DNA of 16,458 nucleotides from Nitrosotalea sp. (lineage in GTDB: Archaea; Thermoproteota; Nitrososphaeria; Nitrososphaerales; Nitrosopumilaceae), in contig JAKEIJ010000178.1 of NCBI GenBank assembly GCA_022545805.1, positions 1-16,458 of the forward strand. Direction: 5' to 3'. This document shows, piece by piece, positions 2,513 to 4,403 of this stretch (position 1 is its first letter; every line of letters begins with the position of its first letter). The position numbers and the translations under genes were made by a program. Below the pieces are notes generated by a model, which worked only from the letters and a program-made list of their open reading frames with translations, searched no databases and had not been told where the DNA came from.

Positions 2513-3136
2513 CTAGTACTTTTTCAAGTTACCATTCTTGTTGAACAGATCTTGGACGTTTGTGTCTGCAAGGTGATACTTTATGTTAATTCCCTTGTTG
2601 ACATCTACCAATTCTGTCTTCTGTGTTGCAGCGCCACTATAGTATGCATTCAATGCATCGCTACGTGAACCTCCTTGCTCCAAGACTTTGGTCATGGCAA
2701 GTTTTCCCTGAGCTACCTTTGCCTGCATGTATGCAAACTCGTCTTGGAATACTCCTTGCGCGGAACTATCCACGGTGCTGACAAAGTTAGAGTATGCATT
2801 TGCTGGATTGCTCATATCATTTACGTTGTTTGAGCTAGCAAGGTCTGCTTGCAAGTAATCGTTTGCAAGTTTGCGTTGCTGGTCAATCAACTGTTGTTGT
2901 TGAGCTTGGTATGCTTGTTTCTGTTGTTGTGCTGCGTACTGTTGCTTGAAGAGTTCTATGTTGTATAGTATCTTCATCATGCCAGGATCTTTCTTTATTG
3001 CATCGGTTGCCTTGATCTGTATGTTACCTAAAGAATTCTGTCCTGAATCTGCCCAGGCAAACCCTATGTAACTTGCACTCAATAGCAATGATCCTGCGCT
3101 GATTGCAAGAACTAGCTGTATTTTGGTTCCATTCAT
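2513..3136 (-). CDS. secreted Gln-rich coiled-coil protein downstream of the ribozyme
   Basis: A 207-aa protein with a clear signal peptide: a basic start, a hydrophobic core, and a likely cleavage after AWA at about residue 29. The mature part is mostly helical, with a strongly Gln-rich segment (about 63-95) suited to a coiled coil, and no cysteines or second membrane segment. It is probably exported and free or loosely attached to the surface. The start ATG (3136-3134) is supported by the signal peptide and by an unusually good Shine-Dalgarno sequence 11 nt upstream. No convincing TATA box lies at leaderless distance; the 83 nt upstream contain a hammerhead ribozyme, and the gene follows the zinc-finger gene on the same strand, so it is likely transcribed with it. 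Family not recognised. Confidence 0.85.
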   Translation of the reverse strand: MNGTKIQLVLAISAGSLLLSASYIGFAWADSGQNSLGNIQIKATDAIKKDPGMMKILYNIELFKQQYAAQQQKQAYQAQQQQLIDQQRKLANDYLQADLASSNNVNDMSNPANAYSNFVSTVDSSAQGVFQDEFAYMQAKVAQGKLAMTKVLEQGGSRSDALNAYYSGAATQKTELVDVNKGINIKYHLADTNVQDLFNKNGNLKKY

Positions 3137-3147
3137 TCTCTACGTTT

Positions 3148-3155
3148 CACCTCCT
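3148..3155 (-). promoter_or_regulatory. strong Shine-Dalgarno sequence
   Basis: On the minus strand AGGAGGTG (followed by A) lies 11 nt before the ATG at 3136 and matches the archaeal anti-SD core. It stands out because many genes here look leaderless. Its GGAG (3154-3151) can pair with CUCC at 3215-3212, the outer stem I of the hammerhead ribozyme, and its AGGU (3152-3149) could instead pair with ACCU at 3220-3217. Confidence 0.8.
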
Positions 3156-3215
3156 AGTTTTCTCCCGACAATATTGTTTCGTCCGAATCTCACGGACTCA
3201 TCAGGGGATTTGGAG
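3151..3215 (-). ncRNA. type I hammerhead self-cleaving ribozyme
   Basis: Read on the minus strand, every conserved hammerhead element is present in order. Stem I 5' strand UCCC (3208-3205). Core CUGAUGA (3204-3198). Stem II GUCCG (3197-3193) with loop UGAGAUU (3192-3186) and CGGAC (3185-3181), including the G10.1-C11.1 pair. GAAA (3180-3177), whose last A is A15.1. Stem III A-C-A (3177-3175) paired with U-G-U (3170-3168), loop AUAU (3174-3171), giving A15.1-U16.1 and C15.2-G16.2. C17 at 3167, then stem I 3' strand GGGA (3166-3163). Predicted cleavage is between 3167 and 3166, after GUC. Stem I is the open stem, so this is type I. An outer stem I, CUCC (3215-3212) with GGAG (3154-3151), lies across an internal loop that could supply the loop II-stem I tertiary contact. 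Activity is inferred, but the match is complete. Confidence 0.92.
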
Positions 3216-3219
3216 CAGG

Positions 3220-3447
3220 TCATATCGATTTTAGCATCGCCTCCACGACCTGTTTTACAATTTCTCTAAAGTCATTTTCAAGTATCTTGTGGATGACTGT
3301 CTTGTATCCACTGCATTTCTCTGCATGTACTAGTAGGTGTTTTGCACAAAAGTTTCTTCCACACTGGGTACATAGTTGTGTGCAGTTACAAGCACAGGTA
3401 TTGCATTTTGCTTGTTCAGTTCTTTCAACTGCTGGTATTGTTGTCAT
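3220..3447 (-). CDS. small Cys/His zinc-finger protein (AN1- or B-box-like)
   Basis: A 75-aa protein with a zinc-binding pattern: C15-x2-C18, C20, C22, C26-x2-C29, C34-x2-H37, H41 and C45, including GRNFCAKH and HAEKC. This resembles the AN1 or B-box type of treble-clef fingers that bind one or two zinc ions; the family call is by eye. A basic helical tail (about 50-75) follows. Small AN1-like proteins are frequent in archaea, and their partners are mostly unknown (protein or nucleic-acid binding). The ATG at 3447 sits 24 nt after a TATA box (ATTTATAAT, 3475-3467), so the message is probably leaderless. Its TGA stop (3222-3220) lies five bases before the outer stem I of the hammerhead ribozyme, suggesting the ribozyme forms in the 3' end of this transcript. 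Confidence 0.85.
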   Translation of the reverse strand: MTTIPAVERTEQAKCNTCACNCTQLCTQCGRNFCAKHLLVHAEKCSGYKTVIHKILENDFREIVKQVVEAMLKSI

Positions 3448-3466: not shown

Positions 3467-3475
3467 ATTATAAAT
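3467..3475 (-). promoter_or_regulatory. TATA box for the zinc-finger/secreted protein transcript
   Basis: ATTTATAAT on the minus strand, centred 24 nt upstream of the ATG at 3447; the only good TATA box seen for the two-gene unit that contains the ribozyme. Confidence 0.65.
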
Positions 3476-3513
3476 CAATTAGAACACCTTTTGCCGCAGA
3501 AATGTGAGGGTCA

Positions 3514-3620: not shown

Positions 3621-4403
3621 ATGGTAGGCAGAGGAACAGACAATCCTGAAAGGGCAATCCCACTGAAGAATCTTACAAAAAATGAGATCAGCCCACTTGA
3701 TGTTTTAATATTGCAAGTATTGCAGGAAGGTGCTACTCCTGACACTGCAAACAAGGAACTTGAAAAACATGGCTATGTGCTGTCCAGAGATAATGTCAAG
3801 GGCAGAATTGAAGAGTTGATAAAAAAACGTGTTATCTTGGAGCACAACAATAGTGCAGACAGCAAGAGAGACGACAGGATAAAATGGATTTTAGTTGATC
3901 CAAGTAAGCTATTTGACAATCAATTTTATACTTTTATCAAAACTCAGAACCCGCTTTTTGAGCGCCGAGTTATTCCATATTCTGAGATGTATAACAACTT
4001 GGTGGAAATTAGCAGGGAATACAGCATTGTCACAACAATTGATGTCATCCAAGGAGAGGGACAAAACTATGACTTTATCTTAAGAATAGTGACAAACGAT
4101 GCTGGCCACTTTGAAGAGATGGTGGAAAAGATCAGGTCTCTTGGATGGGTGCACTCTGTTGACAGCAAACCAATCCATGTGCTAGAAGGTGTTGGAATAT
4201 CAAAGAACAATCTAACCAAAGTTCACATGAACTACTTTTACGAACCGATAAAACTTCCAGACTTTGAGTCTTATCTTAAGACCATACGACAGGTGTATCG
4301 AACTTATGACACCTACATAAAAGACGAGGGCTCATCAAAGCAAAAGGTTGCTAAAAAGAAGAGCAATGAAGACGCATTTGATGACTCCAAGTCAGAACAG
4401 TAA
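3621..4403 (+). CDS. HTH transcriptional regulator with ACT/RAM-like domain
   Basis: A 260-aa protein. Residues about 20-90 look like a winged helix: LDVLILQVLQEGATPDTANKEL leads into a recognition-type segment with LSRDNVKGRIEELIKK and a wing. After a linker, residues about 120-190 form an alternating beta-alpha unit (VTTIDVIQGEG, then FILRIVT, then a helix with FEEMVEKIRSLGWV) resembling the ligand-binding domain of Lrp/AsnC or ACT-type regulators. The lysine- and acid-rich tail (about 235-260) is probably disordered. It is the first gene of a run, with a methyltransferase gene starting 3 nt after its stop. The dyad at 3563-3581 may be its own operator. The DNA-binding role is supported by fold cues only; ligand and targets are unknown. 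Confidence 0.8.
   Translation: MVGRGTDNPERAIPLKNLTKNEISPLDVLILQVLQEGATPDTANKELEKHGYVLSRDNVKGRIEELIKKRVILEHNNSADSKRDDRIKWILVDPSKLFDNQFYTFIKTQNPLFERRVIPYSEMYNNLVEISREYSIVTTIDVIQGEGQNYDFILRIVTNDAGHFEEMVEKIRSLGWVHSVDSKPIHVLEGVGISKNNLTKVHMNYFYEPIKLPDFESYLKTIRQVYRTYDTYIKDEGSSKQKVAKKKSNEDAFDDSKSEQ

Follow-up and report, generated by a model that had tools for sequence, protein, structure and literature searches.

A type I hammerhead ribozyme conserved in one gene junction of Nitrosotalea and a second archaeal genus

Background

Hammerhead ribozymes are already known from archaea. At least three are mentioned in PMC3088659, and type II hammerheads are reported from some archaea in PMC3088659 and PMC6155905. 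In the former, the role of hammerheads in prokaryotic cells is presented as an open question (Perreault et al., PMC3088659). The window analysed here, a stretch of 16,458 nucleotides from a genome of Nitrosotalea, an acidophilic, ammonia-oxidising archaeon, poses this question anew: what would a hammerhead do in the 83 nt junction between two cellular genes that lie on the same strand?

Results and Discussion

A complete hammerhead on the minus strand

Type I hammerheads follow the core rule C3UGANGA9, G12AAA15.1 and U16.1 H17, in which N7 and H17 are the positions left free. Judged by its sequence, the minus strand from 3208 to 3163 is a complete type I hammerhead ribozyme, arranged as follows.

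3163..3208, minus strand: type I hammerhead ribozyme, from stem I to stem I, identified by sequence, alignment and covariance models
3205..3208, minus strand: 5' strand of stem I, UCCC, pairing with 3166-3163; paired in 21 of 21 distinct rows and invariant
3198..3204, minus strand: core CUGAUGA (C3 to A9); N7 is U3200, and U, A or C in relatives
3181..3197, minus strand: stem-loop II, GUCCG-UGAGAUU-CGGAC, 5 bp (3197-3193 with 3185-3181); two pairs with changes on both sides
3178..3180, minus strand: core GAA (G12, A13, A14), invariant in the alignment; G12 is 3180
3168..3177, minus strand: stem-loop III, ACA-AUAU-UGU, 3 bp (3177-3175 with 3170-3168), including A15.1-U16.1 and C15.2-G16.2
3166..3167, minus strand: cleavage site predicted by hammerhead rules, between C17 (3167) and G (3166); H17 is C or A in relatives
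3163..3166, minus strand: 3' strand of stem I, GGGA, the 5' end of the predicted downstream product

The first-pass annotation had placed a complete type I hammerhead in an intergenic region of an archaeon, and sequence, covariation, conservation and a covariance model built outside Nitrosotalea bear it out. Loops close stems II and III and stem I is open, as the type I topology demands; a type III hammerhead (the RF00008 type, which opens at stem III and has a looped stem I) was rejected because stem III is closed and stem I open here. Cleavage is presumably at 3167^3166, as assigned from hammerhead rules, and this position and the placing of G12 at 3180, both proposed earlier, agree with the minus-strand reading. 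Stem III had been described as 3-4 bp with an AUAU or UA loop; the 3 bp and the AUAU loop stand for the window, whereas a fourth pair would need a loop of 2 nt. Many relatives in the alignment have a stem III of 4-5 bp. Pairing of CUCC with GGAG, which would lengthen stem I outwards in the window, was dropped, the 5' flank being variable and the 3' flank fixed.

A descriptor consisting of the core with at least 4 bp in stem I, 3 bp in stem II and 3 bp in stem III matched one site in the window, both strands included, and one site in 20 Mb of random sequence (a single strand, generated as a first-order Markov chain from the window's dinucleotides), which amounts to about 0.0016 sites expected per window. 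This expectation, the presence of the element in 24 of 250 family genomes and the compensatory changes described below rule out a chance match.

Distribution and covariation

A covariance model, R1, whose training set was the elements of 19 sequences from two genera, was run on 250 genomes of the family. It found 24 genomes with E below 1e-14, each with a single copy: 20 of the 37 Nitrosotalea genomes, among them that of Candidatus Nitrosotalea devanaterra (LN890280.1), and four genomes of a second genus (G041, G077, G090, G098). Because R1 was trained on 19 of the sequences in this two-genera set, its E-values there are largely circular. Four further family genomes with R1 E-values of 0.004-0.08 were excluded from the count. 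In other families of the order, R1 found hammerheads in G318, G370, G331, G368, G372, G373 and G409 (E 2.8e-11 to 2.6e-8).

The alignment holds 23 elements from 23 genomes, 21 of them distinct, with G098 left out; six genomes that were represented twice contribute one element each. Its core is invariant in every row except at N7 (U, A or C) and H17 (C or A). Altogether 98.3% of 294 cells are paired and 3 of 14 pairs have changes on both sides, two in stem II and one in stem III. For four of five covariation measures, no more than 1 of 500 shuffles did as well as the alignment; the measure of further pair types was no better than shuffles, all 500 of which reached it. Stem I, of 4 bp, is invariant across the two genera and therefore contributes no covariation there. 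At the position of a fifth pair, 20 of 23 rows have A-G, and the pair is possible in 3. The loop UGARAYN and the A-rich flanks of stem I are largely conserved in the alignment, a pattern that would fit a tertiary contact between stem I and loop II.

Covariance models

No Rfam model scored above its cut-off in the window (cmscan); RF00008 gave 20.3 bits and an E of 3.3, with a gathering score of 48.5. Across the window's genome, the only RF00008 match up to E 10 is this element (E 0.052). Of 14 control genomes, 8 also gave matches below the cut-off, and an RF00008 match by itself is therefore no proof. At the same time, Rfam returned no match over cut-off at eight loci, four archaeal and four viral, each of which has a complete hammerhead, and its silence is for that reason weak evidence against the element. 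Clear type I hammerheads with a GUGARA loop fall under the Rfam gathering cut-offs, and the results suggest that Rfam thresholds conceal a set of archaeal and viral type I hammerheads. The SAM_alpha match at 3233-3307, within the upstream gene described below, was discarded (18.1 bits, cut-off 36).

A second model, R2, was made from seven archaeal hammerheads only, all from outside the two genera. In these seven sequences 102 of 102 cells are paired and 9 of 15 pairs have changes on both sides (3 of 5 in stem I, 2 of 5 in stem II and 4 of 5 in stem III). The first-pass annotation had proposed a search with the Rfam hammerhead models as a check. No Rfam gathering score is reached in the window, but R2 is significant there, with 51 bits and an E of 2.1e-10 for its genome. 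R2 also recovers all 24 tested loci of the two genera; it finds nothing at ten Nitrosotalea loci (L028-L037) where the close downstream gene is absent, and it matches one of seven further loci (L094, E 1.5e-4). On 349 genomes of the phylum it matched seven at E of 0.001 or less, six from the two genera and one new (G471, locus L230). Its support is not wholly independent, since R1, the model trained on the elements in question, had served to find its seven rows.

Several weak candidates were inspected. Among weak R1 matches, L091 (G109) has no stem II by eye and L092 (G343) and L093 (G050) lack core letters by eye; L094 (G337) scores 26.7 bits with R2. The RF00008 matches L045, L047 and L053 obtained nothing from R1 or R2 at E up to 1.

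One locus and its genes

The element lies among the following features.

2513..3136, minus strand: downstream gene of 207 aa; hydrophobic N-terminal segment by eye; a low-confidence structural model is largely helical
3220..3447, minus strand: upstream gene, 75 aa; invariant Cys/His zinc-finger pattern, zf-AN1 match below cut-off
3147..3155, minus strand: Shine-Dalgarno-like AGGAGGUGA of the downstream gene, beginning 11 nt past the cleavage site
3467..3474, minus strand: TATA-box-like TTTATAAT, 20-27 nt before the ATG of the upstream gene
3489..3502, minus strand: imperfect palindrome TTTCTGCGGCAAAA, found by eye, a possible operator
3621-4403: divergent gene of 260 aa
798-2477: fn3 gene

The downstream protein has 207-230 residues across rows, the disrupted L004 excepted; it has no Pfam or PHROG match, and its structural model is poor (pLDDT 51.5). 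The upstream protein has 74-76 residues, with L014, L016 and L004 as exceptions, and C15, C18, C26, C29, C34, H37 and H41 are invariant in 19 rows. Pfam gave it zinc-finger matches below threshold only, and its model (pLDDT 66) has weak structural matches to B-box, ZnF-UBP and AN1 folds, the best with an E of 0.39. Neither of these two flanking genes matches a PHROG, so that the setting is not one of recognizable virus genes. Two of ten other proteins of the window do match PHROGs, the fn3-repeat protein (tail proteins) and an esterase.

Wherever the contig extends far enough, the flanking gene pair is the same. A close downstream gene (at least 49% identity) occurs in 20 of 37 Nitrosotalea genomes, which are the same 20 that carry the hammerhead, and in each the hammerhead stands before it. 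Some match to the downstream gene is present in 36 of the 37, more distant beyond these 20; the block is absent from 17. The zinc-finger gene is found in 19 of the 20 Nitrosotalea carriers and in the four of the second genus, missing only in G021, where the contig begins within the end of the gene. The divergent 260-aa gene lies beside the element in 21 of 24 genomes, the exceptions (L014, L016, L020) being on contigs that start near the element, and the fn3 gene likewise in 21 of 24 (exceptions L022, L024, L026). Across the genus, 19 of 37 genomes have the 260-aa gene, and each of these also carries the ribozyme; one carrier, G017, is without a match. Genes and ribozyme are thus present or absent together at one chromosomal place, G017 excepted. 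Loss of the core with retention of the flanking genes, named in the first-pass annotation as an outcome that would speak against the ribozyme, was looked for in the 37 Nitrosotalea genomes and found in none; the same 20 carry gene and ribozyme.

One contig is irregular. On contig C57 of G010 (L004 and L021), disrupted and partly repeated zinc-finger, downstream and 260-aa genes surround a single hammerhead, with the copy of the downstream gene in pieces. Either an assembly fault or a local duplication could account for this arrangement.

Mean pairwise identity is 0.912 over the first 33 nt of the ribozyme and 0.457 in the spacer that follows the upstream stop codon (68 pairs of equal length). 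For the zinc-finger gene, identities at first, second and third codon positions are 0.640, 0.712 and 0.526 (20 loci). The TATA block is 0.825 identical overall, and at the 12 loci with a spacer of 12 nt it exceeds the ribozyme (0.953 and 0.904, respectively). These values bear on whether the element might be a decaying, functionless relic of a virus hammerhead or a chance match. Viral contigs contain many hammerheads that share this loop II, and Rfam offers no match over its cut-off, both of which would suit such a reading; yet all 23 aligned genomes, from two genera, have kept the core intact next to a spacer of so low an identity, and chance would supply only the small expectation given above. 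We regard this reading as most improbable.

Spacing, putative promoter and predicted transcript

In all 23 rows the hammerhead stands behind one gene's stop and before the next start on one strand. The distance from stop to element is 7-24 nt, namely 12 nt in 15 rows, 7-13 nt in five more and 21-24 nt in the three aligned rows of the second genus. GAGGTGA or GGGGTGA follows the predicted cleavage site after 11-13 nt, and the first start codon of a long frame after 20-30 nt, in 23 of 23 rows; these spacings are to be read with the reservation that only the end of the upstream frame is available in L014 and L016, that the genes are disrupted in L004 and that L046 has an alternative earlier start.

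On the far side of the zinc-finger gene, TTTATAAT is found near its ATG (about 27 nt before it) in 18 of the 19 rows with enough upstream sequence; in L051 TTAATAAT stands in its place, and L020 is cut by the contig end. The position of this block would be compatible with a transcript start at or near the zinc-finger ATG, and from their arrangement the flanking genes look like one operon. The palindrome sits between the zinc-finger gene and the divergent 260-aa gene. Its form in relatives, TTTTTGYNGCAAAA, lies upstream of the TATA box in a 15-nt block that is 0.77 identical over 19 rows, and it is possibly a binding site for a regulator.

Fold, fixed place, Shine-Dalgarno spacing and conservation, all established by comparison, lead us to the view that a conserved type I hammerhead in a same-strand gene junction probably splits a dicistronic mRNA. 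That the two genes are transcribed together, that the ribozyme cleaves in the cell, that this affects expression and that the element is inherited vertically, the last because the locus is common to two genera, is what we infer from this comparison. A single transcript would start from the TATA box before the zinc-finger gene. Once the 3' strand of stem I has been transcribed, the ribozyme would fold and, by hammerhead chemistry, cut after C17. The upstream product would carry the zinc-finger gene and, past stems II and III, terminate in a 2',3'-cyclic phosphate, and the downstream product would start with 5'-OH-GGGAGAAAACUAGGAGGUGA and reach its AUG after 30 nt. The two halves would then be translated and decay separately; in the rows of the two genera, the next gene would be left with a leader of 20-30 nt that includes its Shine-Dalgarno site.

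Folding and regulation

Thermodynamic folding does not speak for this scheme. In the window the hammerhead fold has -10.5 kcal/mol against -15.7 kcal/mol for the minimum-energy fold, and the pairing probability of stem I is 0.00-0.32 across the 23 rows. Compared with shuffles, the folding of the 90-nt region is only moderately better (z -1.98, with 5 of 200 as good). These energies are weighed lightly because tertiary contacts are not part of such models. Misfolding is possible, and the energies are a real caveat for a stem I of 4 bp.

Competition of alternative folds with the hammerhead could also be taken as the sign of a controlled switch, in which cleavage is set by a protein (the zinc-finger or the divergent 260-aa protein), a ligand, acidity or terminating ribosomes. 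With the ribosome footprint taken as a measure of reach, the spacing, which is 12 nt in 15 rows and within 7-13 nt in five others, places stem I near the reach of a terminating ribosome. But the letters of the spacer vary freely, the three rows of the second genus have a longer spacing, and the minimum-energy folds differ among rows. Nor was a conserved extra domain seen: nothing of the element extends beyond stem I, and its stem III is short and differs between rows. A switch of this kind is accordingly unlikely.

In several rows the minimum-energy fold joins the UCC region to the Shine-Dalgarno site, and this pairing has a probability of 0.71 in L014 and 0.75 in L051, as would be expected if the element were a non-cutting leader structure that hides this site by pairing UCCCCU with AGGAGG. 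Partition functions over the 23 rows put the mean pairing of the site with UCCCCU at only 0.11, and sequestration of the Shine-Dalgarno site as a switch was rejected since this pairing is not conserved. In the cleaved product the mean openness of the site is only slightly higher (0.55 against 0.42), and in 7 of 23 rows it is lower. Such a structure would also leave the invariant CUGANGA, GAAA and UH letters unexplained, and we consider it very unlikely.

Hammerheads of other archaea and viruses

Eight archaeal hammerheads from outside the two genera were compared with the Nitrosotalea element (coordinates are those of each locus).

L087, 2697-2759, minus strand: type I hammerhead before a phage tail gene
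L090, 2586-2643, plus strand: type I hammerhead before a phage tail gene
L089, 2709-2769, minus strand: type I hammerhead two genes upstream of a capsid gene
L230, 1501-1563, plus strand: type I hammerhead behind a capsid gene
L085, 2672-2727, plus strand: hammerhead before a DsbD_TM-type gene
L096, 1501-1562, plus strand: hammerhead with flanking proteins similar on both sides by eye
L086, 2634-2691, plus strand: hammerhead whose neighbours' proteins have an N-terminal hydrophobic stretch by eye
L088, 2721-2780, minus strand: hammerhead with no gene stop nearby, the exception

All are type I and six of eight have the loop II GUGARA. Seven of eight sit between genes of the same strand, at positions from an overlap with the stop codon to 27 nt behind it. 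They differ from the Nitrosotalea element in their gene pairs, which include phage tail, capsid and DsbD_TM genes, and in having a fifth stem I pair and stem I covariation (seven of the eight). The contexts of L087, L090, L089 and L230 appear to be archaeal proviruses. L085 and L096 apparently occupy the same gene junction in two families (f7 and f4), and this junction before the DsbD_TM-type gene is perhaps a second conserved cellular context. In L086 the UGA stop of the upstream gene appears to be the UGA of the core CUGACGA. L088 has a TATA-like stretch about 50 nt upstream, which suggests a ribozyme in a 5' leader.

The loop II pattern was found in at least 120 stretches of viral contigs. 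Among the matches listed, 129 of 137 sites complete a type I hammerhead by the descriptor, and 48 of these 129 have a stop before and a start after on the same strand, where the stop must end a frame of at least 80 codons and lie from -45 to +15 nt of stem I, and the start must lie no more than 90 nt past the cleavage site and open a frame of at least 60 codons; the other 81 listed fail these joint limits, partly through contig ends. In many of 60 viral rows examined, TAA directly precedes stem I. One viral stretch of 14.8 kb (L152) has eight R2 matches.

The viral hammerheads are, like the Nitrosotalea element, type I and often placed between the stop of one gene and the start of the next; they have a stem I of 4-7 bp (60 rows among the matches listed) and share its loop II by choice of the pattern. 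In contrast, they lie in viral contigs, sometimes several per region and fused to the stop, whereas the Nitrosotalea element is present as one copy per genome between two non-viral genes, 7-24 nt past the stop. Prophage hammerheads have been proposed to cut long transcripts into mRNAs of operon or gene length, and their cleavage has been seen in vitro and in E. coli, according to PMC3088659.

The Nitrosotalea element probably has a common origin with the type I hammerheads that stand behind stop codons in gene clusters of tailed viruses. Because the same order of stop, ribozyme and start recurs among tailed-virus genes, a virus-type ribozyme has probably been domesticated. A further-reaching proposal, to which we give an even chance of being right, is that ammonia-oxidising archaea domesticated it before the two genera parted and that a single dicistronic mRNA of the cell has since been matured at this fixed site, perhaps under the control of ribosomes that terminate at the stop codon about 12 nt upstream.

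Relation to known ribozymes

The glmS ribozyme is a self-cleaving RNA that stands before a prokaryotic gene; it has a different fold and needs glucosamine-6-phosphate. The Nitrosotalea element shares with it the position before a prokaryotic gene, and a likeness to its ligand site was not seen in the element. A paper with roughly the title 'Hammerhead ribozymes in archaeal genomes: a computational hunt' is also said to exist. With type I hammerheads (Rfam clan CL00010), as described in PMC3088659, the element has in common CUGANGA, GAAA, UH, the three stems and the open stem I; it differs in a stem I of 4 bp in 20 of 23 rows, in scores below the Rfam cut-offs and in its place between two cellular archaeal genes. 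The open-access literature searched (mostly titles and the beginnings of abstracts) contained nothing on a Nitrosotalea hammerhead or on one in a conserved pair of archaeal cellular genes. The ribozyme class and its occurrence in archaea are therefore known, and the setting in a conserved cellular gene pair is without precedent found in the literature searched.

The locus thus presents a hammerhead between two cellular genes, at one place in 24 genomes, with its predicted cleavage 11-13 nt from a Shine-Dalgarno-like site. Since Candidatus Nitrosotalea devanaterra is among the carriers, what a natural hammerhead does in an mRNA can be put to the test.
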